From NCBI RefSeq assembly GCF_036924515.1, contig NZ_JAZHRR010000001.1, positions 839,001 to 903,000 of the forward strand: a DNA stretch of 64,000 nt, in the 5' to 3' direction. This DNA is from Bradyrhizobium sp. AZCC 1610 (lineage in GTDB: Bacteria > Pseudomonadota > Alphaproteobacteria > Rhizobiales > Xanthobacteraceae). Shown in pieces: positions 29,681 through 59,826 of this stretch (positions are counted from its first letter, which is position 1; every line of letters begins with the position of its first letter). The position numbers and the translations under genes were made by a program. A model generated the notes under the pieces. It made no database searches, was not told the origin of the DNA, and saw only the letters and a program-made list of their open reading frames with translations.

Positions 29681-29967
29681 TCAAGAGTGCCTGTTTTCAG
29701 ATGGCGACCGGCCCTAATTCGGCCAGTAGTACGCGCGATCGAGCTCTGCTGTTTCCTCCGCAGGACTAGATTAACAAAGGGCCAGCCCGAGACACTGGAG
29801 TTCCAGCCTAGCGCGGCCAAAACGGAAGGCCGGTCCACCTAAAGACCATTCCCAACTTGCTTTTGCAGGGGCGCTCAATCTATCCTTGGTGCTTGGCCTC
29901 GACCTCATTGGGAAGGGCTTTGTGGCTCCAGAGAGAGCCCGTAAAACGAAGGCAAAGGAGGAACGCT

Positions 29968-30828
29968 ATGACGAAGCATTTTGCGTTGAGTCTAGCTGTC
30001 GCGCTCGGCCTTGCGGCAGTCGCCGCGCCGGCCCCCGCACAAGAGGGTCCGAAACTTTACGTCTTCACATCTGGCTCGTTGGGAGGCTTCCCGAAGGCAG
30101 CCCTGCAGATGGGCGGGCAAGGCAACATCGACTGGGCGCCTGTAAGTTTCTACGTGCTCAAACATCCCAAGGGCAACGTCATCATCGACACCGGAAACAA
30201 CGACAAGACGATCACCGACCCCGAGGGATGGTGGGGACCTCTCGCCAAGGGCTTCGGCCTTAAAATGACCAAGGATGACGCGATTCCAGCGCAACTTGCC
30301 AAGATCGGTCTCAAGACCGACGACATCAAATACGTGGTCGCCGGTCACCTGCATCTCGATCACGGCGGAAACGTCGGCCAGTTTCCGAATTCAACCCTCG
30401 TCGTCCAGGAAGATGAGCTGAAGGCTGCCTGGTGGCCGGATGTCGGCTTCTCCGTCTATTACATTCCAGGCGATTTCGCCGACACGAAGAAAATGAACGT
30501 CATCCGCCTCAACGGCGATCTGGACCTGTTCGACGACGGCTCGGTGCGTGTCATGCGTGCTCCAGGCCATACCCCAGGCAGCCAGTTCGTGACCGTGAAG
30601 CTGCCCAAGACCGGCTCGGTCATCCTCACCAGCGACGTGGTCTATCTCAAGGAAAATCTCGACAAGAACCTCATCCCGCCGATCCCGGGCACACAAAACC
30701 CGGGCGATGCCTATCGCAGCTATCAGCGCATTAGGCTGGTGCGCGATGCGAATAACGCGCAGATTTTCTACGGGCACGATCCGGAAATCTTCAAGGCGAC
30801 GAAGAAGGCGCCCGAGTTTTACGATTGA
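29968..30828 (+). CDS. secreted metallo-beta-lactamase-fold hydrolase (AHL-lactonase-like)
   Basis: 286 residues from the ATG after AAAGGAGG. Signal peptide MTKHFALSLAVALGLAAVAA, cleaved near APA. The zinc-site motif is HLHLDH (residues 127-132), followed by further ligands in APGHTPGSQ, LTSDVVY (bridging Asp) and the late YGHDPE histidine, so a dinuclear site is complete. Spacing resembles the AiiA/AttM group of N-acyl-homoserine lactonases rather than beta-lactamases, but those are usually cytoplasmic. An exported form could quench signals or cleave lactones outside. It lies about 125 bases before an ABC operon and might be its first gene. Confidence 0.85.
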   Translation: MTKHFALSLAVALGLAAVAAPAPAQEGPKLYVFTSGSLGGFPKAALQMGGQGNIDWAPVSFYVLKHPKGNVIIDTGNNDKTITDPEGWWGPLAKGFGLKMTKDDAIPAQLAKIGLKTDDIKYVVAGHLHLDHGGNVGQFPNSTLVVQEDELKAAWWPDVGFSVYYIPGDFADTKKMNVIRLNGDLDLFDDGSVRVMRAPGHTPGSQFVTVKLPKTGSVILTSDVVYLKENLDKNLIPPIPGTQNPGDAYRSYQRIRLVRDANNAQIFYGHDPEIFKATKKAPEFYD

Positions 30829-30952
30829 GATCTGAATCGGCGAGGGCTCTGCTCGGGAGCAGGGCCCGCACCAGACCGTCCAGGCGAGCCTGCCGGGGCG
30901 ACGCAGTCGCAGGCCTGTCTGCAGGGCAGACGCTGCTTTGTCGGGGCGCTGC

Positions 30953-31708
30953 ATGACCATCTCGTCAATCGACGCGGCGCCGCGCGAGGATGCGCCAATC
31001 CGTGCGACGGATACCCCGGCCATCTCAGCGGTCAGCGTAAGCAAACGCTACGGCTCGGTCACGGCGCTGGACCGGCTCACGCTCGACATCCGCCGCGGCG
31101 AAGTGTTCGGCCTGTTGGGACCGAACGGCTCCGGCAAAACCACCTTCATGCGGCTGCTCGCGGGCTACCTGCTGCCGTCTGCAGGGCGGCTCACGGTGGC
31201 AGGCCTCGACACAGTGCGCGATTCGCTCGCGGTGCGGCGGCTTATCGGCTATGTGCCGGAATCGGCGCCTCTCTACCGGCAAATGCGCGTCGGCGAATTC
31301 CTGGCATTCATGGCCCGGCTCCGCGGCTTGCCTGAACGGACGGTGGCCGCCGCCGTGGAGCGTGTCGTCGACCGGCTGGCGTTAGGTGCTGTGGTGGACA
31401 AGCCGACCCGGGCCCTGTCGCGTGGCTATCGCCAGCGGGCTGCGCTCGCTCAGGCATTGATCCACGATCCCGACATCCTCATCCTCGACGAGCCGACCAA
31501 CGGGCTTGATCCACGCCAGATCATCGAAATGAGGGGGCTGATCCGCTCGCTTGCCGGACGCCATACGGTGCTCATGAGTTCGCATATCCTCAGTGAGGTG
31601 GAGAAAACCTCGGACCGGGTGGCGGTGATGCTCGACGGCCGGTTGCTCGGCGTTCGGGCGATCGCCGACACCCCGAATCTCGAGAGCTGGTTTTTGTCGC
31701 TGACATGA
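30953..31708 (+). CDS. ABC transporter ATP-binding protein (GldA-like)
   Basis: About 251 residues from the ATG at 30953 (a TTG 15 bases earlier is possible). Walker A LLGPNGSGKTT (near residues 54-64), signature LSRGYRQRAALAQAL, Walker B DILILDEPTNGLDP and the switch region SSHILSEVEKTSD are intact. The type is the DrrA/GldA export class. The next gene's ATG overlaps its stop, and the following proteins are GldF- and GldG-like, so this drives a three-part ABC system that in Bacteroidota belongs to gliding but in Proteobacteria has no settled role. Confidence 0.9.
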   Translation: MTISSIDAAPREDAPIRATDTPAISAVSVSKRYGSVTALDRLTLDIRRGEVFGLLGPNGSGKTTFMRLLAGYLLPSAGRLTVAGLDTVRDSLAVRRLIGYVPESAPLYRQMRVGEFLAFMARLRGLPERTVAAAVERVVDRLALGAVVDKPTRALSRGYRQRAALAQALIHDPDILILDEPTNGLDPRQIIEMRGLIRSLAGRHTVLMSSHILSEVEKTSDRVAVMLDGRLLGVRAIADTPNLESWFLSLT

Positions 31709-32406
31709 GAACACTGCGCATCCTCTTCGCCAAGGAACTGAACGCGACGTTGACGTCGCCGATCGGTTACACGGTCGCGGCCGTGTTCCTGCTCGTGCTC
31801 GGCTATACCTTCAGTCTGACGCTTTTCGTCACCAAGGTCGCCAACCTCCAATACATCTTTCACCAGATGTACGTGTTGTCGATCCTGCTGGTGCCCGTTC
31901 TGACCATGCGCACCTTCGCCGAGGAGCGGCGATCGGAAACGCTCGAACTGCTGCTCACCGCGCCGGTTCGCGAGCTCTCGGTCGTGCTGGCGAAATATGC
32001 CGCTACGCTGACGCTCGTGCTCGGGATTTTCGCGCTAACGCTCATTTACGCCGTGATCCTCGGCCGCTACGGCGAACCGGATTGGGGACCGATTTATGCC
32101 GGCTATCTGGCGCTCGCGCTCCACGCCTCGCTGCTAGTCGCCGTCGGTCTCCTGATGTCGAGCATTACCGAGAGCCAGGTCGTGGCCGCGGCGTTGTCGA
32201 TCGGCGCGTTCCTGATGCTTTGGTTTGCCGATTCGGTGTCCTATCTTCTGCCACCCCCGTTCGACAGCTTTGCAATCAACCTCTCTTTGATAGGCCACTT
32301 CAAACCGATGGTCAGCGGCTCGGTGTTCCTGTCGGACATCGGCTATTTCGTCACCGCGAGCATGCTTGCGCTTTTCCTGACCGCCTGGGGGCTTGCGCAG
32401 CGATGA
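31705..32406 (+). CDS. ABC-2 type permease (GldF-like)
   Basis: 233 residues with six hydrophobic segments. RILFAKELNATLTSPIGYTV AAVFLLVLGY followed by the periplasmic turn and TMRTFAEERRSETLELLLTA PVRELSVVLAKY is the typical ABC-2/GldF start, where ELNA..TSP..Y and EERRSGTLELL are the conserved coupling elements. Overlaps its ATPase gene by four bases upstream and the GldG-like gene by four bases downstream, so the three should be made in equal amounts. Confidence 0.9.
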   Translation: MRTLRILFAKELNATLTSPIGYTVAAVFLLVLGYTFSLTLFVTKVANLQYIFHQMYVLSILLVPVLTMRTFAEERRSETLELLLTAPVRELSVVLAKYAATLTLVLGIFALTLIYAVILGRYGEPDWGPIYAGYLALALHASLLVAVGLLMSSITESQVVAAALSIGAFLMLWFADSVSYLLPPPFDSFAINLSLIGHFKPMVSGSVFLSDIGYFVTASMLALFLTAWGLAQR

Positions 32407-33965
32407 GCGACCAGCAAGGTTTGACCGATCTGCCGGCCGGGGATACCAGCTTTCTTCACAGCCTTCTCGAGTCGCTGCAGTCGCTCGACTGGATCAATCT
32501 CGGCTGGTTTGCCGGGGTAGTGCTCGCGCTGGTGCTGTTGTTTGCGGCCGGGCTGAAAGTGCCGGCGAGGCTCGCCTTCGCCAGCCGCATGGCCTCCGCC
32601 ACGCTTGTCGTCGCCGCCGCCGTCATGGTCACGATCCTCGCCAATGTCGCGCTGTTCCGTCACGACGCCCACCTCGACCTCACGCACGACAAAGCCTTCA
32701 CGCCGTCGGCGGAGGCGGGCGAAGTGGTGCGCAGGCTCAGCGAACCCATCGACGTCGTCTATTTCTACCAGAAGCAGAACCAGGCGGCGCGGGCGCTCGG
32801 CGCTATGCTGCGGCAACTCGAACGGCAGAATGCGAATTTTCGCGTGCAGCAGATCGACGCCGATCAGAATCCGGCGCTGGCCAGCAGCCAGGGCGTGCGA
32901 ACCTATAATTCCGCCGTACTGCGCCTCGGCGAACGCCGTGTCGAAGTGATCACCACAGACGACCGCGAGATCGCGCTCGGTGTGTTGCGGCTGTTGCGGA
33001 CCCGTGAGGTCGTGATCTGCTTCGCCTCGGGCCACGGCGAATACGACATCGACAATTTCGAATTCCACACGCATTTTGAGGGTGCCCACAATCATAGCCA
33101 TAACGTCTCCGGCACCGGGGTAGTGCAGATGGAGCAGCACGGCCTCGGCCGCCTGAGACGCGCCATTGAGAAGCTCGGCCTAGTCGCCCGAAAGGTCTCC
33201 TTCGCCACTGGGCAACCGATCCCGGACGATTGCGCTGCGATCGTCGAAGCCAATCCGCGGACCCGCTACAGCCCCGGCGAAACCGACGTGCTGCGCCGCT
33301 ATCTGGAACGCGGCGGCTCTGCGATGTTCCTGATCGAGCCGGACTATACCCTCGATGAGAGCATCGCGGCCCTACTTGCCGGCCTCGGCATCGCGGTGCG
33401 CGATGGTGTGATCGTCGATCCGACCGAGCATTATTTCACCGATGAGCAGATGATTGCCGTATCGCGCTACGGCGCCCACCCTGCAACGCGGGGGCTGGCA
33501 CTCTCATTCTATCCCGGTGCGCGTCCGCTAGAAATCTTGGCAGCGCCGGGCGTGCAGGTGACGCCACTGGCTGCCAGCAGCGGCGACAGCTACATCATCG
33601 CCAACCGTCTGGGGAACCAGACCAAGGCGAAGTCCGGGCCGCGCTCCTCGCAGATCATTGTGCTTGCCGCCGAGGGACGGCTGGAAGGATCGGCGGCAGC
33701 GCCCTTCCGCATGATCGTCGCGGGCGACGCCGATTTCGCCTCCAATTCCTTCTTTCCTTATCTGGCCAATTCCGACGCCGTGCTGGCCGCAATCTCCTGG
33801 CTGACGCGTGAGGAACGGGCGCCGGCGATGAGACCGCCGGTCGAGGTGCTGCCGACGGTGTCGCTCACCGGCGAGCAGATGCGCGGCATCTTCCTCGTCA
33901 CAGTTCTGCTGATTCCCGGCTTGATAGCATTCGCCGGCAGCGCGATGTGGTGGTGGCGGAGATGA
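32403..33965 (+). CDS. GldG-like ABC auxiliary protein (IFT/ABC-type_uncharacterised domain)
   Basis: 520 residues. Two membrane helices near the N-terminus (WFAGVVLALVLLFAAGLKVP and ASATLVVAAAVMVTILANVA), a large periplasmic region and a C-terminal anchor (FLVTVLLIPGLIAFAGSAMW). The periplasmic part begins LDLTHDKAFTPSAEAGEVVR and has VVICFASGHGEYDIDNFEFH and VEANPRTRYSPGETDVLRRY, the GldG pattern of a Rossmann-like unit that reads SGHGE and PGE. A histidine-rich loop (HTHFEGAHNHSHN) is unusual and could bind metal, which is notable next to a HupE gene. Start at the ATG overlapping the permease stop. Confidence 0.85.
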   Translation: MSDQQGLTDLPAGDTSFLHSLLESLQSLDWINLGWFAGVVLALVLLFAAGLKVPARLAFASRMASATLVVAAAVMVTILANVALFRHDAHLDLTHDKAFTPSAEAGEVVRRLSEPIDVVYFYQKQNQAARALGAMLRQLERQNANFRVQQIDADQNPALASSQGVRTYNSAVLRLGERRVEVITTDDREIALGVLRLLRTREVVICFASGHGEYDIDNFEFHTHFEGAHNHSHNVSGTGVVQMEQHGLGRLRRAIEKLGLVARKVSFATGQPIPDDCAAIVEANPRTRYSPGETDVLRRYLERGGSAMFLIEPDYTLDESIAALLAGLGIAVRDGVIVDPTEHYFTDEQMIAVSRYGAHPATRGLALSFYPGARPLEILAAPGVQVTPLAASSGDSYIIANRLGNQTKAKSGPRSSQIIVLAAEGRLEGSAAAPFRMIVAGDADFASNSFFPYLANSDAVLAAISWLTREERAPAMRPPVEVLPTVSLTGEQMRGIFLVTVLLIPGLIAFAGSAMWWWRR

Positions 33966-46646: not shown

Positions 46647-47459
46647 TTAAGCTATGTCATCCGTGGCTAGAGTCTGCCGCGCGGTCTTTTCTTGTGCGAT
46701 AATTCCTTCCAGCCGCGATATGTTCTCGAGCAAGCGCTGGCTGGTTAGCACAAGAACGTAATAGCCGAATTGTGGATTCTGAAAATAAATCTCGAGCAGC
46801 TTTTCATAAGTAATAGTCATCACTTGCCCGTCTTCGATGCATTCGACGGTAGCGGTTCTCCGCTGATTGGGAGTAAGGAAACCGAGTTCGCCCATGAGAC
46901 GTCCCGGCGGAAGCTCGACGCCGATTTCCTTGACCAAAAACGTTCCTGTGACCGTTAGAAACATTTCGGAAGCTGCATCATTCTTCTTGAACAATTTGTC
47001 TCCCCGGCGAAATCTGCGCTCAGTCATGAACGGTTTGAGCGGTTCCAATGAGGTATCTCCCTCCGTCGCAATACGTGCCCTTTTGATCAGATTGAGCATT
47101 TGACGGAGGCGGATTGCATTGACCGGCAGCAAGAGCAGATAGAGGATGAAAGCCCCGAAATTTCCCGAGAGCGCGCCATAGGCGACGAAGAACATGCAGC
47201 CGACCATGTTCGCGACGCGCAGTGGCACGATTGTCTGCATCAGCAAGGTAGCGACAAGAAAGATGGCCCCAACCACGGCAAACATATTGGCAAGCGTGAT
47301 GTTGGCCAGCACAATTTCCAGCAGCCGGTTAAATAGTGCGTCGTAGGTGATGTTGTTCGGATCGAGACCCATCTGAACCAGAATCTTTTCGATCCTGAGA
47401 TTGTCCGCCGCCGTATCAAGAATGCGGTCTAGTATCGAAGCTGCACTGTTGGACCCCAT
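46647..47459 (-). CDS. membrane protein with cyclic-nucleotide-binding domain
   Basis: 270 residues. Three hydrophobic helices (IVLANITLANMFAVVGAIFL VATLL; VANMVGCMFFVAYGAL; FGAFILYLLLLPVN) are followed by a linker (LRQMLNLIKRARIATEGD) and a cNMP-binding beta roll: KPFMTERRFRRGDKLFKKND AASEMFLTVTGTF and GRLMGELGFLTPNQRRTATV. The phosphate-binding cassette PGRLMGELGFL.P...RTAT retains the Gly-Glu and Arg expected for ligand contact. A Popeye-like layout (three helices plus cNMP domain), with a C-terminal coiled helix. It could read cAMP or cGMP made by the three cyclases encoded 3-11 kb downstream; this link is inference. Confidence 0.85.
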   Translation of the reverse strand: MGSNSAASILDRILDTAADNLRIEKILVQMGLDPNNITYDALFNRLLEIVLANITLANMFAVVGAIFLVATLLMQTIVPLRVANMVGCMFFVAYGALSGNFGAFILYLLLLPVNAIRLRQMLNLIKRARIATEGDTSLEPLKPFMTERRFRRGDKLFKKNDAASEMFLTVTGTFLVKEIGVELPPGRLMGELGFLTPNQRRTATVECIEDGQVMTITYEKLLEIYFQNPQFGYYVLVLTSQRLLENISRLEGIIAQEKTARQTLATDDIA

Positions 47460-48102: not shown

Positions 48103-48705
48103 TCATGAGGTGTCGATCCTGATGCGGTTCGTTGGAGCTGTCGGCCGATGCCGTGGCGTTGCACCGCACTCGAAGACCTCGATGATGATCATGCGACCGC
48201 CGCAGCATGGACAAATCGGCTTGCCGGCATCGGCGGCGGCAGCGGTGGGCTCGCCCTGGGAGTTTGAAACGGCGAGCAACTCACGCGCTCGGGCGATGTT
48301 GTCGGCGCGCGTGCCGCTGGCCAACAGGCCGTAGTGGCGGATGCGGTGGAAGCCGTGCGGCAGGACGTGGATGAGGAAGCGGCGGATAAACTCGCCGGTT
48401 GAGAGTGTCATGAGCTTCTGGCGATCGCGACTATCGGCACGATAGTCTTTCCACCGGAAGGTGACACTGGTGCGATCGCAGGCGATCAGCCGGCTGTTGG
48501 CGATGGCGACGCGATGGGTATAGCGCGACAGATAGGCCAGCACGGCCTGTGGCCCGCCGAACGGGCGCTTGGCATAGACCACCCATTCGGCTCGGCGCAG
48601 CGGTGCCAGATATGCCGCGAATGCCTGCGGGTCGGCGAGAGCGGCATGATCGCCGAAGAACTGCAGGTGGCCGGCGTTGTGGGCCGCGATCAGCTTCTCC
48701 ACGAA
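48103..48705 (-). pseudogene. IS91-family transposase, N-terminally truncated
   Basis: About 200 C-terminal residues of a Y2-type transposase: FVEKLIAAHNAGHLQFFGDH, WVVYAKRPFGGPQAVLAYLS, RYTHRVAIANSRLIACD, RRFLIHVLPHGFHRIRHYGL, then the zinc-binding CPCCGGRM. The catalytic tyrosine and N-terminal zinc finger half are missing; the frame upstream of 48705 is antisense to an IS110 remnant, so the element is broken at that junction. Such rolling-circle transposases mobilise adjacent DNA. Not active. Confidence 0.8.
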
Positions 48706-48714
48706 GATCTGGGA

Positions 48715-48883
48715 GCGCCATGGGCTCAAGCCCTGGATCGAGGCGGCCAGGAAGCGGCTGCATCACAACGTGCTGGCGATCGCACTCGCCAACAAGCTCG
48801 CCCGCATCGCCTGGAGCGTCCTGGCCCGTGGTCGGGCATTCGAGGCGCGGAAGATGGATCAGGCAGCGAGCCAATCCGCGTGA
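48715..48883 (+). pseudogene. IS110-family transposase C-terminal fragment
   Basis: ERHGLKPWIEAARKRLHHNV LAIALANKLARIAWSVLARG is the characteristic C-terminal end of IS110/IS1111 transposases (P.L..L..R......ALANK.ARI.WA.L..G). Fifty-six codons survive to the stop at 48883. The catalytic DEDD and serine domains are absent, cut at the IS91 junction. Confidence 0.75.
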
Positions 48884-50110: not shown

Positions 50111-51223
50111 TCACGTCATCTCGATCACGTTGTACGCCGCTATGGGACGACGCAAACCCTTGAGCGTCAGTTCACCTACGGGCTCCGCCGTTGCCCTCCT
50201 GTCGAGCGCCGCGCGCACTTTGCTATCGATCAAGATCTGACCGTCGCGCGCCTCCGCGCAAAGACGGGCCGCGAGATTGACCACGGTCCCGATCGCGGTG
50301 TACTCAGAGCGGCCCTCGAAACCAATAGCGCCGAGCGTGGCGTATCCATATGCTATGCCGACTCCAAAACCGAGCTCGTGCCTTTCGCGCCGCCACTTGC
50401 TGGACAATTCGGACAGACGACCTCGCATCGCGACCGCCATCTGAACAGCTCGCTCGCACGGATCGGGACAAGGAATCGGATCGCCGAAGATCACCATGAT
50501 TCCGTCACCCAAAAACCTCTCCAACGTGCCTTCAAACTCATGAATAAGGGAGCCTAAGGTTGCATGATACTCCCGCATCACAGCCATCACCTCCTCAGGC
50601 TCGGCGATCTCCGCGAAAGCGGTAAATCCCCGCAGATCACCGAAGACTATGGTCACCTGCCTGCGGTGGCTCGCCAGGGGCTCATATGTCGACGAAGAAA
50701 GGATCAATTCCGCTATCTGTGGCGAAAGAAAACGCTTTAAGCGGCTGACGCGCTCAATTTGCTCAAGCTGCTCGGCAACGCGTTGCTCGAGCATTCTATT
50801 CCACGACGCGAGTTCGACGGCCTGCGCTTCAACTCGATCATGCAATTCCTTGATTCGGAGCATAGAGCGCACTCGGGCAACGAGTGCTGCATGATCGATC
50901 GGTTTGGTCAAATATTCATCCGCGCCTGAGTTGAGTCCGGTAACGACGTCTTTTGAATCAGTTCGCGCCGTAACCATGACGATTGGAACAAATCCGAGCG
51001 TAGGGTCGCCTTTCATGCGCCGGCAGACCTCAAAGCCATCGATTTTCGGCATCATGACGTCAAGGAGGACAACGTCCGGCGCAACTTCATGCGCGACTGC
51101 GAGCGCTCTCTCGCCGTTTTCAGCCTCCGTCGTCTCATAACCCTCGGCGCCCAGCCGCGCGGTAAGAAGGCAGCGATTCGTTTCGTTATCATCTACGATC
51201 AAGATGCGGGGTGGGTCATGCAT
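50111..51223 (-). CDS. response regulator with class III adenylate/guanylate cyclase domain
   Basis: 370 residues. Receiver domain first: ILIVDDNE (acid pocket), VVLLDVMMPKIDG (phospho-acceptor Asp) and LTKPI (Lys). A linker coiled coil (ELHDRVEAQAVELASWNRML EQRVAEQLEQIERVSRLKRF) leads to a class III cyclase (VTIVFGDLRGFTAFAEIAEP, FLGDGIMVIFGDP, GIAYGYATLGAIGFEGRSEY TAIGTVVNLAARLC). The first metal residue is Asp of FGDLRG and the second Asp of LGDG; all look present, so active. Last gene of an operon with a sensor kinase and a receiver, linking phosphorylation to cyclic nucleotide output. Confidence 0.92.
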   Translation of the reverse strand: MHDPPRILIVDDNETNRCLLTARLGAEGYETTEAENGERALAVAHEVAPDVVLLDVMMPKIDGFEVCRRMKGDPTLGFVPIVMVTARTDSKDVVTGLNSGADEYLTKPIDHAALVARVRSMLRIKELHDRVEAQAVELASWNRMLEQRVAEQLEQIERVSRLKRFLSPQIAELILSSSTYEPLASHRRQVTIVFGDLRGFTAFAEIAEPEEVMAVMREYHATLGSLIHEFEGTLERFLGDGIMVIFGDPIPCPDPCERAVQMAVAMRGRLSELSSKWRRERHELGFGVGIAYGYATLGAIGFEGRSEYTAIGTVVNLAARLCAEARDGQILIDSKVRAALDRRATAEPVGELTLKGLRRPIAAYNVIEMT

Positions 51224-51252
51224 TTCCGCTCCACGTCGGCACGCGCCGGAAC

Positions 51253-51618
51253 CTATGTCAGGTATCGATTGATCGTCTCAAGGAGTTTTCGTGCGCTGTA
51301 GGGCTTCGCGACATAGGCATCGCAGCCTGCTGCGCGCGCCTTTTCTTCGTCGCCGCTCAGCGCGTAGGAGGTGACGACGACGATTGGAATATGACGGAGA
51401 TCTGATTGTGCTTTTATGCGCCGTGTCGCCTCGTATCCGTCAAGAATAGGCAGTTGGATATCCATCAGGATTAGGTCCGGGCTTTGGGTTCGCGCTGCTA
51501 TGAGTGCCTCTTCGCCGTCGTGCGCCTCGATCATTTCGTAACCGACGCTTGCGAGCAGATCGCGCAGAATCTGCCGATTGTCCTCCTGATCTTCCACCAC
51601 CAGTACGCGCTTGCTCAT
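51253..51618 (-). CDS. stand-alone response regulator receiver (CheY-like)
   Basis: 121 residues. VLVVEDQEDNRQILRDLLAS VGYEMIEAHDGEEAL, LILMDIQLPILDGYEATRRI, and VVVTSYALSGDEEKARAAGC DAYVAKPYS show acid pocket, phospho-acceptor Asp, Thr/Ser switch and Lys. No output domain. It lies four bases overlapped (ATGA) with the upstream sensor kinase and 29 bases before the receiver-cyclase, so is likely an intermediate or competing phosphate acceptor in the same relay. Confidence 0.93.
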   Translation of the reverse strand: MSKRVLVVEDQEDNRQILRDLLASVGYEMIEAHDGEEALIAARTQSPDLILMDIQLPILDGYEATRRIKAQSDLRHIPIVVVTSYALSGDEEKARAAGCDAYVAKPYSARKLLETINRYLT

Positions 51619-53240
51619 GTCTGGGTCGCCTGTTGCTCTAGCCGGGCTGGGACCAAAAAGGAAAAGGTCGCGCCATGGCCGAGGCGGGATTCTATCCAGA
51701 TTCGTCCACCATGCATCTCCACAATGCGCTTTACGATGGCGAGGCCCAATCCGGAGCCGCCCTTCGTCTTGGTGATCGAATTATCGACCTGTTGGAATTC
51801 TTCGAAAATTTTTGTTTGATCGGCTTCGTCGATACCCGGTCCCGTGTCTTGGACTGAAAATTTGTAGAAATCCCCTTTCGCCTCCACTTCGATCCGGATC
51901 TCTCCCGCATCGGTGAATTTTATCGCGTTACCAACAAGGTTGAAAAGGGCCTGAGCGAGCCTGCGTTCATCTCCCCGCGCCGGCGGTAGACCAGTGGGAA
52001 CAGCAACTCTCAACCCCAATTTCTTTTCGGCGGCGAGGGATTCAACGGAGGTATAAACGCCGCTAACCAATTCCTCTACGGAATAGTCGGCCAAAGAGAG
52101 CCGAAGCTGTCCGGCTTCAATCTTGGAGAGATCGAGGACGTCGTTGATGAGCCCGAGCAGATGTCTGCCGTTCCGCTGGATGCGTTCGACGGGTAATCGC
52201 ATTTGTTCTGGAGGATCGCCGTAAATGCCGTCCAGCAGGAGTTCTGAAAAGCCGAGTATCGCGTTCAGTGGCGTCCGTAACTCATGACTCATGTTTGCGA
52301 GGAACTGCGACTTGTGACGGCTCGCCTCCTCAAGGCTTCGGTAAAGCTGCTGGAGTTCTTCGCAGGTCGAATTGACGTGCGCCGCAAGCTCCCCGAGTTC
52401 GTCCCGATTGGGAACCTCGATGCGACGGGTGAAGTCGCCAGCCGCTATTCGATTCAAACCGTCGTGGATAATGCGGACCGGTTCGATCACAGATCGGGAG
52501 ATCGCATGTCCCAAGACCAGCGTAAGCACGAAACTTGCGAGCGCGACGGCGGCGACAAGCACTTGAGATTTGGCATAGGTGTGCCGGCTCGCATCTATGC
52601 CGGCGATCATGTCCGCTTCAGCCCGGTTGACCAATTGATTGGTCAATCGTTCGAGCTTGTCCGCGAGGGGCCCAAGTGCGAGTTCGCTCTGTTTGGCCTC
52701 AGCCGCTCGCCCGTTGCGGATGAGATCGATGACGTGCGAACCTACGGCAATGAAGCGCGCATATTCTTCGCGCACCTGGTTGAGCAGCGCAAGCTCGTCC
52801 TTTTCGACAAACGAGACGCGGTCAAGGCCGTACCCGAACTGGTTGATCTGCCGTAGCGCACTTGCCAGTGTCGTTTCGCTCGGAAAGGCGAGAGCTGAGG
52901 ATACGCCGTGGAGCTGTCGAAGCGTATCGTGCTGCACCTGCCGGTATGCCTCGATCTTGTGCTGGAGTGCAACTACTCGGTTTGTCTGCTGGTCGGCTTC
53001 GCGCAACGAAAGAAATCCGATCACCCCAACCGAGACCAGGAGCACCTCGATGATGAGGAAGGCCATCAGCAATTTGGTGCGCAGCGACGGGCGTGACTCG
53101 AAGCCGACGCGGCCGTCCTTCACCGATTTGCCGTCTCGACGTGCTCGCGATATTGCAGCGAGCGGGCGAAGAAACGAAGGAGTTGAATCAGCCTCCAAGT
53201 TCACGTCGGACCTCGTTGAGGAACCGCCAGTCGGCTCCAT
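51615..53240 (-). CDS. membrane sensor histidine kinase
   Basis: 541 residues. Transmembrane helix (LLMAFLIIEVLLVSVGVIGF LSL), periplasmic helical sensor of about 140 residues, second helix (QVLVAAVALASFVLTLVLGH), HAMP (RSVIEPVRIIHDGLNRIAAG DFTRRIE), HisKA (FLANMSHELRTPLNAILGFS) and HATPase (LVGNAIKFTDAGEIRIEVEA, VQDTGPGIDE, GSGLGLAIVKRIVEMHGG). All catalytic boxes intact. It overlaps the gene for a periplasmic binding protein by 53 bases at its start (the true start may be inside) and couples to a receiver gene. The binding protein is a plausible input. Confidence 0.92.
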   Translation of the reverse strand: MEPTGGSSTRSDVNLEADSTPSFLRPLAAISRARRDGKSVKDGRVGFESRPSLRTKLLMAFLIIEVLLVSVGVIGFLSLREADQQTNRVVALQHKIEAYRQVQHDTLRQLHGVSSALAFPSETTLASALRQINQFGYGLDRVSFVEKDELALLNQVREEYARFIAVGSHVIDLIRNGRAAEAKQSELALGPLADKLERLTNQLVNRAEADMIAGIDASRHTYAKSQVLVAAVALASFVLTLVLGHAISRSVIEPVRIIHDGLNRIAAGDFTRRIEVPNRDELGELAAHVNSTCEELQQLYRSLEEASRHKSQFLANMSHELRTPLNAILGFSELLLDGIYGDPPEQMRLPVERIQRNGRHLLGLINDVLDLSKIEAGQLRLSLADYSVEELVSGVYTSVESLAAEKKLGLRVAVPTGLPPARGDERRLAQALFNLVGNAIKFTDAGEIRIEVEAKGDFYKFSVQDTGPGIDEADQTKIFEEFQQVDNSITKTKGGSGLGLAIVKRIVEMHGGRIWIESRLGHGATFSFLVPARLEQQATQT

Positions 53241-54201
53241 CCGCGACGATTTTCGCAGGGCTTGATTTCAGCATCCCCGCTTCGCGCAGACGAAGCGCGT
53301 AAAAACGGATTGTGTCTTCGGGATCGTAGTCACGCCAGCGGTTGTACGGCACGTCCGCAAGCGTCTGGACCGCGTAGTCCTTGCGAGCCGTGAAGCCCCT
53401 ATCGACCATACGCTGCGCTACAAGGGTCGGCTCGCTCACGCACAAATCCGTCGCCCGGAGCATGGCGCGAACCACCCGCTTGGTGGCGATGGGATTCTTT
53501 CGGACGAATTCGCGATTGCTCGCCAACATGCAGCAAAAGTACTGCGACCATGGGCGATCCTGCGCGCTGTTGACGATGACACGACCGATGTTCTGCGCAC
53601 GCAAACGCTGCGGTTCTGGAGGAAATCCGAGGAAGGCGTCGATCTTACCCTCAGCAAACAACTCGATCGGTTTGACCGGCCCGCTCGTCACCCATTCGAT
53701 GTCCTTGGCGGGATCGAGTCCAACCAGCGTCGCCATCGCGCTGAGGAAAACGTGCGGGCTTGTCTCGAGCCCCTGAATCCCGACCGTTCGCCCCTTCAGA
53801 TCGGCGACGCTGCGTATCCCTTCCTTGGCGAATAGCTCGAAGCAGCCGACATGAATCCCGGCCAGAATCGTAATGCTCAAGCCACGATCGACCTGAAGAA
53901 GAAGCGGACCGGAGAAATGCAGGGTGAAGTCGATGTCTCCCTTCCCGACTGCTTTGGTTTGCTCCACGCCGGCATCGGATTGGACGTAAACGACATTTGT
54001 AAACCCCTCGGCATTCAGCAGGTCGCTAACCACGTACTGCGGGGCAATGCAGATGACCGGGTTCTTCGCGAGGCGGATTGTAGTGGTTTCTGGACGCGGA
54101 TTGGGCCCTTCGGCGCTAAGCCGAGTCACTGGGCTCCACAATATGGCAGTGGAAGCGGCGCAGGCCCCAGCCAATAACAAGTCGCGACGGTTCGTCTGCA
54201 T
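53188..54201 (-). CDS. periplasmic ABC-type substrate-binding protein (NMT1/SsuA-like), orphan
   Basis: 337 residues. N-terminus NRRDLLLAGACAASTAILWS resembles a Tat/Sec signal (RR then hydrophobic). The mature domain is the NMT1/SsuA type: TIRLAKNPVICIAPQYVVSD, VGKGDIDFTLHFSGPLLLQV DRGLSITILAG, FELFAKEGIRSVADLKGRTV GIQGLETSPHVFLSA, FLGFPPEPQRLRAQ. Such proteins bind sulfonates, nitrate, bicarbonate or thiamine precursors. No permease or ATPase gene adjoins; instead the next genes are a sensor kinase and its receivers, so it may serve as a ligand presenter to the kinase. First gene of that operon. Confidence 0.87.
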   Translation of the reverse strand: MQTNRRDLLLAGACAASTAILWSPVTRLSAEGPNPRPETTTIRLAKNPVICIAPQYVVSDLLNAEGFTNVVYVQSDAGVEQTKAVGKGDIDFTLHFSGPLLLQVDRGLSITILAGIHVGCFELFAKEGIRSVADLKGRTVGIQGLETSPHVFLSAMATLVGLDPAKDIEWVTSGPVKPIELFAEGKIDAFLGFPPEPQRLRAQNIGRVIVNSAQDRPWSQYFCCMLASNREFVRKNPIATKRVVRAMLRATDLCVSEPTLVAQRMVDRGFTARKDYAVQTLADVPYNRWRDYDPEDTIRFYALRLREAGMLKSSPAKIVADGADWRFLNEVRRELGG

Positions 54202-54373
54202 CGGAACCTCCTCGAAATCACCTTACCTAAAGTGGCGCTTCCAGGGGCCGAACGTCGGGCTGACGTATTTTGCGTGGACTTCAAGCCCCCGCTAACGAAG
54301 ATGATATCACGGCAATGGCATATCGCATACGGCCGATTTTTCGGCGTGCGCCGGGCCCCGAGGTCGGCTTCGG

Positions 54374-54468
54374 GTCAAACGCGTCATTTCGACCGTGCGC
54401 CGACCACTTCCGATCTATCCCGATAAGCAGACATTTTCAGTGTCCGTCGGCATGTCTCAAAGGTGCCA
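54374..54468 (+). repeat. 95-bp noncoding repeat upstream of a cyclase gene, copy 2
   Basis: Order: GGGTCAAACGCGTC, CACTTCCGATCTATCCCGA, AGCAGACATT, GTCGGCATGTCTCAAAGGTG. It ends 78 bases before the ATG of the next gene. Matches 57865-57958 upstream of another cyclase. Confidence 0.8.
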
Positions 54469-54546
54469 AGAGCCGACGTCATGCGCGACCTCCCGCATCG
54501 GCCGTGGTATTGTGCTGGTTTGAACGGGCCCACCGGGAGGTGGGAC

Positions 54547-57500
54547 ATGGATATTGAGGCTTGGCTGCGCGGGTTAGGGCTGGAGCAGTACGTTACGGCC
54601 TTTCGTGAGAACAACGTCGAGGCCGATGTGCTCCTGCGGCTAACGGCCGAAGACCTTAAGGACATTGGGGTCCGATCGGTGGGGCACCGCCGAAAGCTTC
54701 TGGCGGCAACTGCGGAGCTGCGGAGCAGATCCTTCCGAACCTCCGTCGAAGGTGTCGACGAGCCTGCGCATTTCATTGAACACGCACTGGAGGCGCGGGC
54801 AGGAGCCGAGCGTCGGCAGCTGACCGTTATGTTCATTGATCTCGTCGGCTCCACTGCGCTCGCGTCCAGGCTCGATCCGGAGGAGATGCGCGACCTGATC
54901 CATCTCTATCAAGGAGCGGTCTCTGCGGACGTCACACGGTTCGGAGGTCACATTGCCAAATACATGGGCGATGGAGTGCTCTGTTATTTCGGTTGGCCGC
55001 GCGCGCATGAGGACGATGCCGAGCGAGCGGTGCGCGCTGGCCTCGCCGCCGCCCGCTCCGTTGGGGACATTTCGAGACCCCATGGCCAGCGCCTTGCGGC
55101 ACGGGTCGGGATTGCGACCGGGCTGGTCGTAGTCGGCGACTTGGCCGGCGTCGGGTCGGCCCAAGAGCGCGCGGTCACCGGCGATACCCCAAACCTTGCC
55201 GCGCGGCTGCAGGCCTGTGCCGAGGCCGGACAGGTTCTGGTTGCGGAGAGCACGCGGCGCCTGCTGGGCGGGCTTTTCGATTTTTCCGAGCGTGACAGCC
55301 TGCTGCTCAAGGGCTACGACCACCCGATCTGCGCCTATGCCGTCGCCGGCAGCCGGGCGCCCGAGAGCCGTTTTGGTGCGCTGCGTGGACCTGGCCTTAC
55401 GCAACTGGTCGGACGCGAACACGAGCTGAAAATCCTGTGCGACGCATGGGCCGCGGCCGCGAACGGCCGGGGGCAGGTGGTCCTGCTTGTCGGCGAGCCC
55501 GGGATCGGCAAATCGCGACTGATCGAGGCCCTGAGGCAGCGGCTCGGCCGCGCGCCCCGCTCGCGCCTCGAATATCAAGGCTCACCACTCCACGCCCAGA
55601 CTGCGCTCCATCCCTTCGCGAGCGAGCTCGCACGGGCCGCCGGCTTCCGCCTCGAAGATGGCCTCACAGCTCGGCACGCAAAGCTTTGCGCGCTACTCGA
55701 GCACCGGCTAGGGACAAGAGCCGAGGCTGCTGCGCCCGTTCTTGCGAGCCTTCTCGGCGTGCCCTCGCTCTCCGCGGACCTTACGCCGCAGCAGCTCAAG
55801 GCGAAGATGCTTGCGATGCTCGCGGCGCAGGTGGAGACCTTGGCGCAGCGCGGGCCGCTCCTTCTTGTGTTTGAGGATGCGCATTGGGCGGACCCGAGCT
55901 CCCTTGAGCTGCTTGGACGGTTGGCTGAAACGGTAGCTGGCCTCTCCATTCTGATGATCGTCAGTCATCGGCCCGAGTTCTCGCCGGCGTGGGGTGATCT
56001 CCCGCACGTGCTTTCGCTGAGGCTTGATCGGTTGAACCGCCGTGAGGCCGCAGCGCTTGTCGAAGAGACGGCAGGCGCCGGACGCCTGAAGCCGGCGGCC
56101 GTCGAGCGTATCGTCGCCCGTGCGGATGGAGTGCCACTCTTTATCGAGGAGCTGTCGCGGGTAGTTCTTGAGAGCGCGCAGCGCAGCGATGCCGAGCCTA
56201 GCCTCTGCGAAGGCTCGCAGGTAGCTCACGCGGAGATTCCTAGCACTCTGAGCGACCTGTTGTCGGCCCGGCTGGACCGCCTCGGTTCAACAAAGGAGGT
56301 TTTGCAAGTCTGCGCCGCGATCGGGCGGGAGTTCTCCCACGACCTGGTTGTCGCGGTATCGCGAAGCGACGTCGGTGCTGTCGGTGAGGCCCTGGACCAC
56401 GCTGTCGCGAGCGGCCTCATTGTCCGCGAGGGTGTGGGCACGGCGGCGATATACCGGTTCCGCCATGCTCTCATTCAGGAGGCGGCCTACGCCTCCATCC
56501 TGAAAAGCCGGCGTCGGTCGCTGCACGTCCGCATCGCCGAATCGGCCGAGACGCACCTGTCCGAGCTTTCTGGACCACGGCCAGAATGGCTTGCGCGACA
56601 CTATGCCGAGGCGGGGGAGACGATTCGGGCGGCAGGTCTTTGGCTCGAGGCCGCCCGGCTGGCGAAGGCTACGTTCGCCACCCGTGAAGCTGCTTCTCAC
56701 CTCACCGCCTGTCTCGACGCGACCCGGTCTGAGGTCGAACCGTTGCCGGAGCTTCGCCGCTTCCGCACCGACGCATTGATCATGCTTGGCGACCTCGCGA
56801 GTCTTGCAGAGAATATTGCTGCGGCAAACGAGTATTATCGCCAGGCAATCGAGGAGGTCGCCGATCCCGCAGTACGCGAAGGCATCGAGAAAAAGCGCCA
56901 CCACTGCCGAATCGCGAAGCGTGGCTTGGCGCGCATTGCCTATTACGAGCATGGCGCGGGTGACTTCACGCTCCTCTTCGTCAGCACTCAGGCGCTCGGA
57001 TTGGCCATGTTCCAGCCTGTGCTCGAGCGCCTCTGCGATGAGTTCAGGGTTGTCACCATCGATCCGCGCGGGTCCGGTCGCTCAAACGCGCTGCAGAGGC
57101 CCTACACGATCGCCGAGCATGCGAGCGACGCGCTCGCCGTGATACGCGAACTTGGGGCGTCGAAGCTGATCGGTGTCGGAATCTCGATGGGAGCCAACGT
57201 CCTGTTTCGAGTGGCGCATCAAGGGGCGGAGTTCCTGAGTGGTATCGTTACGATCGGCGCGCCTTCGGCCGGCCAAGGCCAGGAACATTTCTCAGAACAT
57301 TGGATCGCGCTTCAGGAAGAGATGCGACGCACCGGGGAGGTGGAGCCTATGCTGCGGCTCCACGTCGGCGAGGTCTTCTCGGAGCCCGAAATGCATGAAA
57401 TGCTGGATTCCGTCGTTCGATCCAGGCTCAGGCTTCCGAAGGAGACGCTCCTGAGTTTCTTCCTGGACGCGACGGACGGCGACGTGACAGGCATTCTCCC

Positions 57501-57714
57501 ACTCGTGCACACGAAGACGCTTGTCACGCATGGCGGAGAGGATCGGCTCGTCTCATTCGCGGCCGCGGAGTTGACTGCATCGTTGCTTCCCGACGCAACG
57601 CTGCACATATTCGAAGCCAAGGGTCACTTGCCTCTTTTCACGGACACCGCCGAGTTCTGCCACGTCGTTCGGGCCTTCGCGCGCAGTCTCGCCTCGAGCC
57701 GCCCGGTTAAATGA
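54547..57714 (+). CDS. SAM - class III cyclase - AAA ATPase - TPR - alpha/beta hydrolase fusion
   Basis: 1055 residues from the ATG six bases after GGGAGG. SAM domain (MDIEAWLRGLGLEQYVTAFR, LRLTAEDLKDIGV; 1-65), class III cyclase (LTVMFIDLVGSTALASRLDP, YMGDGVLCYFG; about 95-270), AAA-type ATPase with Walker A (LLVGEPGIGKSRL) and B (LLLVFEDAHWADPSSLELL), a helical TPR-like section (LARHYAEAGETIRAAGLWLE AARLAKATFA), and unexpectedly an alpha/beta hydrolase (IAYYEHGAGDFTLLFVSTQA, PRGSGRSN, nucleophile elbow VGISMGAN, late THGGEDRLV and GHLPLFTD) to the end. The first four parts are a known rhizobial type; the hydrolase tail is not usual. Cyclase residues look intact. Confidence 0.9.
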   Translation: MDIEAWLRGLGLEQYVTAFRENNVEADVLLRLTAEDLKDIGVRSVGHRRKLLAATAELRSRSFRTSVEGVDEPAHFIEHALEARAGAERRQLTVMFIDLVGSTALASRLDPEEMRDLIHLYQGAVSADVTRFGGHIAKYMGDGVLCYFGWPRAHEDDAERAVRAGLAAARSVGDISRPHGQRLAARVGIATGLVVVGDLAGVGSAQERAVTGDTPNLAARLQACAEAGQVLVAESTRRLLGGLFDFSERDSLLLKGYDHPICAYAVAGSRAPESRFGALRGPGLTQLVGREHELKILCDAWAAAANGRGQVVLLVGEPGIGKSRLIEALRQRLGRAPRSRLEYQGSPLHAQTALHPFASELARAAGFRLEDGLTARHAKLCALLEHRLGTRAEAAAPVLASLLGVPSLSADLTPQQLKAKMLAMLAAQVETLAQRGPLLLVFEDAHWADPSSLELLGRLAETVAGLSILMIVSHRPEFSPAWGDLPHVLSLRLDRLNRREAAALVEETAGAGRLKPAAVERIVARADGVPLFIEELSRVVLESAQRSDAEPSLCEGSQVAHAEIPSTLSDLLSARLDRLGSTKEVLQVCAAIGREFSHDLVVAVSRSDVGAVGEALDHAVASGLIVREGVGTAAIYRFRHALIQEAAYASILKSRRRSLHVRIAESAETHLSELSGPRPEWLARHYAEAGETIRAAGLWLEAARLAKATFATREAASHLTACLDATRSEVEPLPELRRFRTDALIMLGDLASLAENIAAANEYYRQAIEEVADPAVREGIEKKRHHCRIAKRGLARIAYYEHGAGDFTLLFVSTQALGLAMFQPVLERLCDEFRVVTIDPRGSGRSNALQRPYTIAEHASDALAVIRELGASKLIGVGISMGANVLFRVAHQGAEFLSGIVTIGAPSAGQGQEHFSEHWIALQEEMRRTGEVEPMLRLHVGEVFSEPEMHEMLDSVVRSRLRLPKETLLSFFLDATDGDVTGILPLVHTKTLVTHGGEDRLVSFAAAELTASLLPDATLHIFEAKGHLPLFTDTAEFCHVVRAFARSLASSRPVK

Positions 57715-57864
57715 CGGCGTTACCGCTCTACTTGCCGGCCAATCCCAAGCTGAAATGCAGGCAAACGCGACAGCAGTCAGTATGTGTCCCTTGCGGGCCA
57801 CGGCAATGGATCTTAGAGCGATCGTCCCGAAGCAGGCACGGCAGACCAAGTGACCGCTCCGGGG
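57715..57864. other. intergenic stretch, nothing supported
   Basis: 150 bases after the fusion gene, before repeat copy 3. No terminator hairpin with a T-run is apparent and no gene is seen. Confidence 0.4.
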
Positions 57865-57958
57865 TCATTCGCGTCGCTCTGACTGTGCTCCGTTCACTTC
57901 CGGTCTTCCCCGACTAGCGGACATCGCCAGAGCCGGTCGGCATGTCGCAAAAGTGCCA
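57865..57958 (+). repeat. 95-bp noncoding repeat upstream of a cyclase gene, copy 3
   Basis: Same order as copy 2: GGGTCATTCGCGTC, CACTTCCGGTCTTCCCCGA, AGCGGACATC, GTCGGCATGTCGCAAAAGTG. It ends about 85 bases before the TolB/TPR cyclase start. Confidence 0.8.
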
Positions 57959-58041
57959 AGAACAGACGTAAGGTGGACATTCCTTCACTTGGCACTGCCG
58001 TCTGATCCGTCGTACTTTATGCGCTGGTTGGATTGCATGCC

Positions 58042-59826
58042 ATGGTGCAAGAGCGGCCATTCCGGATCGAGCGGAGGTTGTCGGCGATATTGGCCGCCGA
58101 TGTGGCTGGCTATTCGCGGCTTATGCACCACGACGAAGAGGCTACCCACGCCAAACTGAGGACGCTCCTCGCGGACGATGTCGAGCCCGCAATCACGGAA
58201 CACGGCGGCCGCATCGTAAAGAACACCGGCGACGGGCTCTTGGCAGAGTTTCCGAGCGCGGTCGAAGCGGTTCGAGCTGCTCTGCAGTTCCAAACTCGCA
58301 TTCGCGAACTTACAAATGGCGATGCGGAAAGCAGGCGTATTGCTTTCCGCGTAGGCGTCAACATCGGGGACGTAATCGTCGAGCCCCATGACATCTTTGG
58401 CGATGGTGTGAATATTGCGGCACGGCTTGAAAGCATTGCAGAACCTGGCGGTGTCTGCATCTCGTCTGCCGCCTACGATCACGTCCGAGGCAAGGTCGGG
58501 GTTGAGTTCGCCGATCTGGGTGAGCATAACCTCAAAAACATCGACCGTCCGGTCCGGGTCTACGCCGTGGTCCGGGAGGGATCATCCAGCCCACCGGCTG
58601 AGTACGCGAAGTCGAGCGCACATTCACCGCCTCGTCTTTCCATCGTGGTGCTGCCTTTCACGAACCTTAGCGGTGGTCCCGAGCAGGACTACTTCATCGA
58701 TGGCGTAACTGAGAGCCTGATCTCGGACTTGTCGCGGATCAGCGGCTCGTTTGTTATCGCGCGCAGCACGGCCTTCACCTTCAAAGGCAAAGACGTGGAC
58801 GTTCAAAAGGTCGGTAGAGAACTGAATGTGCGCTATGTCCTCGAAGGCTCGGTACAACGTGGCGGTAACAGGCTGCGAGTTAACGTGCAACTTATCGACG
58901 TCGAAACTGCCAGCCACCTCTGGGCCGAACGCTTCGACAAGCCTATTGCTGATCTATTCGATATGCAGGACGAAATCGTCTGCAGGCTCGCCAATACATT
59001 GAATGCCCAGCTCATTGAGGCTGAGGCGCGACGCGCGGCGCGTTCACTGCATCCGGATGCAATCGACTTGAGTTTCCAGGGCAACTGTTGCTTCAATAAG
59101 GGGTTCACCGCCGAACACATGGCGCAGGCAAGGGAGTTTTACGAGCGAGCTTTGGTGCTCGACCCGGAAAATACAGAAGCGTTGGTCGGTATAGCGGCTG
59201 TAGATGCGGCAAGCGCTGCGTTTTTTATCTTCAGCGACCGTGAGGCGCGCTTTGCAGCGGCCGAAGCAGCGTTGATCAAAGCTCTATCCATTTCACCGCA
59301 GCACGCTCGGGCTCACATGTATTTGGGTGCCGTGCAATGCTCAACGAAGCGCGCGGCCCAAGGCATCCGGGAATGCGAACGGGCGTTGGCTCTAGATCGA
59401 AATTTGGCCGACGCTCACGGTATTATCGGTTCGGCGAAGGTCTTAATCGGTCGAGGCACGGAAGCCGAGGGTCATATCGAGGAAGCTTTTCGGCTCTCTC
59501 CCCGCGATCCTATTGCCTTTCGGTGGATGTTCTACGCTGGCTTGACCAAACTCATTCTTGGCGCCGACGTTGAAGCAGTGGCATGGCTGCGCCGGTGCCT
59601 CGAAGCCAACCGGAATTATCCCATCGCACATTTCCAGCTGGCGGCCGCGCTTGCGCTGCTCGGCTCGATGGAGGAAGCGCGTGCTGCGGCAAAGGCGGGG
59701 TTTGAGCTCGATCCAACTTTCAACATTCGCCGTACTCGAGGCAGAATAAGTGACGATCCGACCTTCGTTGCGGGGAGCAAGCGCGTCCGTGAGGGTATGC
59801 GCTTGGCCGGGGTGCCTGAGGGGTGA
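58042..59826 (+). CDS. class III adenylate cyclase with TolB-like and TPR domains
   Basis: About 594 residues. Cyclase domain at the N-terminus (ILAADVAGYSRLMHHDEEAT, IVKNTGDGLLAEFPSAVEAV, RVGVNIGDVIVEPHDIFGDG VNIAARLESIAEPGG), with both metal Asp (AADVAG, TGDG) present. Then a TolB N-terminal-like unit (LSIVVLPFTNLSGGPEQDYF IDGVTESLISDLSRIS) and tetratricopeptide repeats (YERALVLDPENTEALVGIAA; ALSISPQHARAHMYLGAVQ). This combination is expanded in Bradyrhizobium and relatives. ATG at 58042 is used; a TTG three codons earlier and weak ribosome site leave some doubt. A fragment of a close relative lies at 17017-17175. Confidence 0.92.
   Translation: MVQERPFRIERRLSAILAADVAGYSRLMHHDEEATHAKLRTLLADDVEPAITEHGGRIVKNTGDGLLAEFPSAVEAVRAALQFQTRIRELTNGDAESRRIAFRVGVNIGDVIVEPHDIFGDGVNIAARLESIAEPGGVCISSAAYDHVRGKVGVEFADLGEHNLKNIDRPVRVYAVVREGSSSPPAEYAKSSAHSPPRLSIVVLPFTNLSGGPEQDYFIDGVTESLISDLSRISGSFVIARSTAFTFKGKDVDVQKVGRELNVRYVLEGSVQRGGNRLRVNVQLIDVETASHLWAERFDKPIADLFDMQDEIVCRLANTLNAQLIEAEARRAARSLHPDAIDLSFQGNCCFNKGFTAEHMAQAREFYERALVLDPENTEALVGIAAVDAASAAFFIFSDREARFAAAEAALIKALSISPQHARAHMYLGAVQCSTKRAAQGIRECERALALDRNLADAHGIIGSAKVLIGRGTEAEGHIEEAFRLSPRDPIAFRWMFYAGLTKLILGADVEAVAWLRRCLEANRNYPIAHFQLAAALALLGSMEEARAAAKAGFELDPTFNIRRTRGRISDDPTFVAGSKRVREGMRLAGVPEG

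Follow-up and report, generated by a model that had tools for sequence, protein, structure and literature searches.

What does a periplasmic binding protein do when its gene overlaps that of a sensor histidine kinase? The question is raised by a locus in the 64,000-nucleotide (nt) stretch of Bradyrhizobium sp. AZCC 1610 DNA analyzed here (contig NZ_JAZHRR010000001.1, positions 839,001 to 903,000; hereafter the window, with positions counted from its first letter). Between positions 50111 and 54201, four co-directional open reading frames (ORFs) on the minus strand encode, in this order, an NMT1-type substrate-binding protein (SBP), a histidine kinase (HK), a stand-alone receiver (RR), and a receiver joined to a class III nucleotide cyclase (REC-cyclase) (Table 1). 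Our best explanation for the whole, in which we place moderate confidence, is that these genes encode a sensor that would convert the presence of a periplasmic ligand into a cyclic nucleotide signal. The cassette itself is well supported and recurrent in distant soil bacteria.

An initial annotation of this DNA had proposed the same four-gene set, and both the same-strand ORFs and their Pfam domains confirm it. The overlap that it claimed between the binding protein gene and the kinase gene is also real, measuring 53 nt or 17 nt depending on which of two candidate kinase starts is used (ATG at 53240 or GTG at 53204, the latter with GAGG upstream). The HK ORF shares 4 nt with the RR ORF, and 29 nt separate the RR stop from the cyclase start. 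Compared with 72 related loci, the window copy is a reduced version of a larger cassette; this reduction, the tandem arrays of up to seven SBPs and the Sco gene of its relatives, and five cysteines shared by the SBPs were all absent from the initial annotation.

Conservation of the cassette and of the SBP–kinase linkage

Our scan of species genomes with the window SBP gave 115 stretches encoding a relative, of which the best 80 were kept, yielding 72 loci whose ORFs were labeled by matching to the window proteins. The usual order in these loci is one to seven SBPs, Sco (SCO1/SenC), HK, RR and REC-cyclase. Because a family kinase lies downstream of the SBPs in 54 of the 72 loci, the adjacency of the two genes is not attributable to chance, and the conservation of gene order on which the initial annotation had proposed to be checked holds for the SBP–kinase arrangement. 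Counting full-length SBPs only, the kinase-linked loci carry one (14 loci), two (13), three (9), four (10), five (5), six (2) or seven (1) before the kinase, with at least two in 40 of the 54.

Many of the non-rhizobial loci are on metagenome-assembled contigs labeled Rokuibacteriota, Deltaproteobacteria, Betaproteobacteria, Chloroflexota and others, labels that are open to binning errors. Plasmid matches at E ≤ 1e-60 came from five records, of Sinorhizobium and Microvirga. In two annotated plasmid copies the genes carry generic names only (substrate-binding proteins, SCO family protein, ATP-binding or GAF-domain protein, response regulator, response regulator), so that the cassette is hidden in annotation. 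The SBP of a Microvirga ossetica plasmid (L122) is 82% identical to the window SBP, versus 55–64% for other Microvirga copies, which suggests transfer between lineages. A variant of the cassette was noted at L080:4791-6383, where a single 530-aa ORF holds HisKA-like, receiver and cyclase domains. A link to lanthanides and pyrroloquinoline quinone (PQQ) was considered and rejected, as PQQ dehydrogenases are near only 2 of the 72 loci.

Whole genomes were scored for co-occurrence at E ≤ 1e-40 for the SBP family and E ≤ 1e-15 for the kinase sensor domain, with at most five SBP and eight sensor candidates scored per genome, a depth at which weak copies may escape. Of 397 genomes sampled from the order, three have the SBP family, and these same three have the kinase sensor, adjacent each time; a sample of 398 genomes of the phylum, which overlaps the first, also gave SBP and sensor in the same three genomes, adjacent. 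The cassette is therefore uncommon, and patchy in its distribution. Positions were matched by eye in 16 genomes containing part of the 72 loci: each of the 14 sensor matches that score over 190 bits has a same-strand family SBP no farther than 2.0 kb away, whereas none of the six sensor matches below 125 bits is on the contig of a listed family SBP. Based on the conservation across loci and this co-occurrence, we rejected the possibility that SBP and kinase are chance neighbors. Conserved linkage of this kind is that of SBP-activated histidine kinase systems, the kinases of which are often encoded next to their own sbp gene according to one paper (PMC11113362). In all, the conserved order, the kinase and the whole-genome co-occurrence support the initial proposal, in which a binding protein that has no transporter acts on a kinase with class III cyclase output.

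Transport genes were sought with one SsuC-type permease query and one SsuB-type ATPase query, both from locus L112, other permease classes not being queried. With these, no permease was found among the window ORFs, and an SsuC-type permease was found in one of the 72 loci (L025), beside an ordinary NMT1 protein; by this permease query, the window SBP does not have nearby the permease and ATPase of its own that an ATP-binding cassette (ABC) importer SBP would have. The window does contain two ABC ATPase ORFs, the nearer about 18 kb from the cassette, and an ORF (26136-27053) that appears by eye to encode an ABC permease of another class. Some other loci have ATPase matches without an SsuC-type permease, one (L021) has a MalF-like ORF upstream by eye, and one (L123) has a short annotated permease about 3 kb away on the opposite strand.

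The binding protein and its cysteines

The window SBP is a member of the NMT1 family (PF09084), with Pfam scores of 66.9 bits for NMT1 and 61.4 bits for NMT1_2, both above cut-off. It scores below the curated NCBIfam cut-offs for SsuA (86.6 versus 163.5 bits) and for the taurine model (41 versus 304.25 bits). The host genome (G000; 7.75 Mb, a single contig) has 22 NMT1 matches, and the window SBP is isolated in it, scoring 760 bits against itself versus 30 bits for the next match. Its AlphaFold2 model has a mean predicted local distance difference test score of 92.1 and finds its best fold matches in CmpA, NrtA and SsuA. A twin-arginine pair is present in all 194 SBP sequences that reach that position, pointing to export by the twin-arginine translocation (Tat) pathway.

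The complete set of five cysteines is found in 192 of 197 aligned SBPs (Table 1). Cys254 is the sole cysteine replaced (in four sequences), the other four positions showing no substitution, and His117 is kept in 195 of 197; the mature part has exactly five cysteines in 180 of 197. Since cysteine is part of three of the six search patterns by which the loci were retrieved, the 55 SBPs containing none of the six were checked separately, and 54 have all five cysteines, the remaining one being unreadable there. An alignment-based protein search placed 7,997 of 8,000 scored candidates at E ≤ 1e-20, of which the best 120 were listed, so that the number is no measure of the size of the cysteine-bearing family.

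In pairwise alignments, Cys223-Cys224 coincides with the EE of the CmpA PEEY motif and falls inside the CCCFC motif of Thi5. The aligned acidic residue of the bicarbonate protein CmpA is probably a ligand contact. For the ligands suggested in the initial annotation (taurine, nitrate, bicarbonate) we therefore found no support, given the SsuA and taurine scores below cut-off and the cysteine pair aligned to the acidic pair of CmpA. The SBP has the cysteine pair alone where Thi5 has CCCFC, which is reported to be an iron-binding motif (PMC10512395).

A Sco partner in the relatives

All-against-all comparison of the loci brought out one further widely recurrent gene, SCO1/SenC, in 35 loci, and tblastn located a Sco gene in 52 of the 72. 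In 48 of the 54 kinase-linked loci it separates the SBPs from the kinase; the six exceptions, without a Sco gene, are L084 and five loci of Bradyrhizobium. All three Sco proteins scanned contain PF02630. A SCO1/SenC partner is thus present in the relatives only: tblastn gave no Sco match in the window, and the three Sco genes of the host genome are all outside it. CxxxC and a distal histidine are found in the Sco protein of 51 of the 52 loci (45 by pattern and 6 by eye), the 52nd being cut off. In Sco1-like proteins, Cu(I) is reported to be bound by two cysteines and a distal histidine, with a role as thiol reductases also proposed (PMC7558416), so that both a metal role and a redox role are possible for Sco in the cassette.

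The kinase sensor and the diversity of SBP paralogs

The window kinase has a 4HB_MCP_1 match (Pfam) at its N-terminus, and His319 is kept in all 53 aligned kinases. As a rule, the sensor domain evolves faster than the rest of a kinase; in this family, the only one compared, its degree of conservation is close to that of the catalytic parts. Mean identity over all 1,326 pairs of the 52 kinases is 68.5% for residues 50-250, which span the membrane helices and the periplasmic part, versus 64.0% for the core. For the 594 pairs in which the core is less than 55% identical, the values are 58.1% and 46.8%, with the sensor higher in 94% of pairs, a contrast that is favored by choosing pairs for their low core identity. 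No cysteine recurs in the periplasmic part, where no position has one in more than 2 of 53 kinases. A fold search with the kinase model (predicted template modeling score 0.42) matched mainly the kinase core and gave nothing on the sensor domain.

Within the arrays, the closest relative of an SBP is seldom its neighbor. For 177 SBPs with a locus mate, the closest relative is in the same locus in 12 cases and in another locus in 165, so the paralogs of an array are mostly old and have been kept apart; median best identity is 59% to a locus mate versus 92% to another locus, the latter being inflated by related strains. We compared mates in 53 loci, with loop classes set by the secondary structure of the SBP model. 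Strand-to-helix loops differ in 65.6% of comparisons between mates, helix-to-strand loops in 32.7%, helices in 42.8% and strands in 43.8% (p 1.3e-5 by Mann-Whitney test between the loop classes; positions are not independent). Strand-to-helix loops are expected to line the cleft in this fold, and their divergence suggests that the array paralogs differ in ligand. The hinge stretches that bear cysteines have variabilities of 0.36 and 0.27, versus 0.66-0.83 for loops picked after seeing the variation.

Cyclase output

The cyclase domain of the REC-cyclase is that of a class III nucleotide cyclase (PF00211, 74.3 bits), and the receiver is closest to PleD. Among 45 cyclases, Asp196 is kept in 44 and Asp240 in 43, and the active-site Asn and Arg positions are each kept in 44; we take these to be the metal-binding and active-site residues, as we take a further Lys position to specify the substrate. 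The closest solved structure is that of the adenylate cyclase CyaB (3r5g, E 9.3e-31), which makes cAMP probably a likelier product than cGMP.

Proposed mechanism and its alternatives

The linkage and conservation described above suggest that the SBPs are receptors for the kinase. A Tat-exported SBP, one of up to seven paralogs in the relatives, would close on a small ligand; once loaded, it would find its dock in the kinase's periplasmic domain, which is helical and conserved, and not in a permease. The kinase would signal through its HAMP domain and phosphorylate two receivers, the stand-alone one and that of the REC-cyclase; the REC-cyclase would then dimerize as PleD does and make a cyclic nucleotide, probably cAMP. 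Paralogs of an array, with their different cleft loops, would bring different ligands to one common kinase. The motif and its neighborhood further suggest a thiol or metal site common to the SBPs: the hinge cysteines would constitute it, and Sco would keep it reduced or copper-loaded. The window and the Bradyrhizobium copies have no linked Sco. A more tentative idea, to which we give somewhat less than even credence, is that a tandem array of such SBPs, with diversified clefts and a constant cysteine site in the care of a dedicated Sco protein, feeds several ligands into a single cyclic nucleotide signal through one kinase sensor, with metal or redox state as the gate.

Several observations weigh against an SBP-to-kinase-to-cyclase sensor. 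By our scoring rule 18 of the 72 loci have no linked kinase; in eight of these no more than 3 kb of sequence follows the last SBP (L087, among them, has a truncated kinase match at its edge that is under the score rule), and the other ten have 3.4-9 kb of sequence left, yet no linked kinase. The Microvirga ossetica plasmid SBP, the closest plasmid relative of the window SBP, is not followed by a kinase, and two of the 16 genomes (G894 and G896) have SBPs and no sensor match. No SBP–kinase fusion was found in the listed domain sets of 15 long matches: four appear by eye to be frameshifted read-throughs (P0121, P0127, P0129 and P0133, two of them listed with both NMT1 and SCO1), one (P0001) is two SBPs in succession, and the ten others were judged from listed domains. 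In a set of 19 kinases, HisKA (68.4%) is more conserved than the periplasmic part (61.7%), with HAMP at 62.7% and the ATPase domain at 57.2%. The cyclase product is made less certain by the substrate-specifying Lys position, which is Arg in 40 of 45 sequences; at another position taken to specify the substrate, Thr313 is present in 41 of 45. Gene proximity does not guarantee contact either, as one study mentions an SBP–kinase interaction that went undetected despite it (PMC11113362).

The main rival explanation makes the SBPs first of all sensors of copper or of thiol redox state, in which organic ligands have no role: their cysteines would bind Cu(I) or switch disulfides, Sco would load or reduce them, and the signal passed on by the kinase would be the metal or redox state. 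The near-constant five cysteines speak for this, as do the Sco proteins with CxxxC and distal histidine at 51 of 52 loci, residues of the type reported to bind Cu(I) (PMC7558416), and the cysteine pair aligned inside the iron-binding motif reported for Thi5 (PMC10512395). However, up to seven paralogs would be superfluous for such a sensor, and strand-to-helix loops would have little reason to diverge twice as much as the others; Bradyrhizobium copies have the cysteines yet no Sco in the cassette, and the periplasmic part of the kinase is without recurrent cysteine. We consider this explanation unlikely, if still the strongest competitor. An explanation by remote uptake, in which the SBPs serve permeases encoded elsewhere and the kinase cassette regulates transport or is a neighbor by history, is improbable. 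It could draw on the SBPs without linked kinase and on the 22 NMT1 matches of the genome, one of them beside permease-like and ATPase-like ORFs, but it has to contend with a single SsuC-type permease in 72 loci, itself beside an ordinary NMT1 protein, with the co-occurrence of SBP and kinase sensor, and with the distance of the family from other SBPs of the same genome. A role as Thi5-like single-turnover enzymes or scavengers, instead of receptors, is very remote: it would find its footing in the fold and the cysteine pair, but the motif is CC and not CCCFC, the signal is twin-arginine, the link to the kinase is tight and transport SBPs fit the fold better, and we rejected it for its incomplete iron motif.

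Neighboring genes

The REC-cyclase gene is one of three class III cyclase genes in less than 10 kb of the window (50111-59826), the other two encoding a SAM-cyclase-AAA-hydrolase protein (54463-57714, plus strand) and a tetratricopeptide repeat (TPR) cyclase (58033-59826, plus strand). The best match to the window cyclase elsewhere in the genome is a long ORF with a cyclase domain 53% identical to it (G000:C1:7562872-7563606; L116). The product of a minus-strand gene (46647-47459) combines a PF00027 cyclic-nucleotide-binding domain with a stretch at its N-terminus that looks hydrophobic by eye, and is a possible effector of the cyclases; a Y2_Tnp transposase-like ORF (48103-48729) lies between this gene and the cassette. 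Farther away, genes for a metallo-beta-lactamase-fold protein, an ABC ATPase and an ABC_transp_aux protein follow one another (29857-33965, plus strand), and an ORF with a TonB receptor plug (17253-19141, minus strand) runs into a downstream ORF of a different frame and may belong to a receptor gene that is broken or frameshifted.

Table 1. Features of the SBP–kinase–cyclase cassette in the window.
Feature	Positions	Strand	Remarks
NMT1-type SBP, predicted Tat export	53188..54201	-	337 aa ORF
Codon of Cys51, start of first helix	54049..54051	-	C in 197/197 aligned SBPs
Codon of Cys120, first hinge region with His117	53842..53844	-	C in 197/197
Codons of Cys223-Cys224, second hinge strand	53530..53535	-	C in 196/197, one unreadable X
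Codon of Cys254, near-invariant	53440..53442	-	C in 192/197
Sensor histidine kinase	51615..53240	-	541 aa; HAMP, HisKA, HATPase_c (Pfam); alternative start GTG 53204
Periplasmic helical sensor, residues 77-226, proposed SBP dock	52563..53012	-	Conservation; SBP co-occurrence
Stand-alone receiver	51253..51618	-	121 aa; Response_reg 93.7 bits
PleD-like receiver and class III nucleotide cyclase	50111..51223	-	370 aa; Response_reg and Guanylate_cyc

Comparison with known systems

Sco proteins of the PrrC/SenC type occur beside redox two-component systems, and TorT is a binding protein that acts with the kinase TorS. Further pairs are on record: CuaD binds the kinase CuaS (PMC10384115), GltB and GtrS are a pair of SBP and sensor kinase (PMC7927077), and LuxPQ and a trimethylamine N-oxide (TMAO) receptor kinase are cited as SBP–kinase cases (PMC11113362). 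Our searches of one open-access library, judged by titles and the opening of abstracts, turned up no description of the cassette, nor a paper on the ligand residues of CmpA and NrtA; papers elsewhere are possible.

Like CuaD-CuaSR, LuxP-LuxQ, TorT-TorS and GltB-GtrS, the cassette is proposed to let an SBP work with a sensor kinase. SBP–kinase pairs being already known, what appears to be new is the combination: unlike those systems, the cassette has up to seven tandem NMT1-type SBPs, constant cysteines, a Sco gene and a cyclase as output. Its SBPs differ from the NMT1/SsuA/CmpA/NrtA binding proteins in having no adjacent SsuC-type permease, five cysteines, and SsuA and taurine scores below cut-off. 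They share with the Thi5/NMT1 pyrimidine synthase the fold and a cysteine pair at the position of the iron motif, but have CC only, a twin-arginine signal and a signaling cassette as their setting. The placement of a Sco gene beside a kinase gene recalls the PrrC/SenC setting, to which the cassette adds an SBP array and a cyclase. SBPs that act on sensor kinases are mostly known singly, whereas here several diverging SBPs accompany one kinase, and an unexplained constant set of cysteines stands beside a gene for Sco, a protein whose usual job is copper delivery. This compact system invites the questions of how one receptor can serve several ligands and whether an SBP receptor is gated by the state of a metal or of redox.

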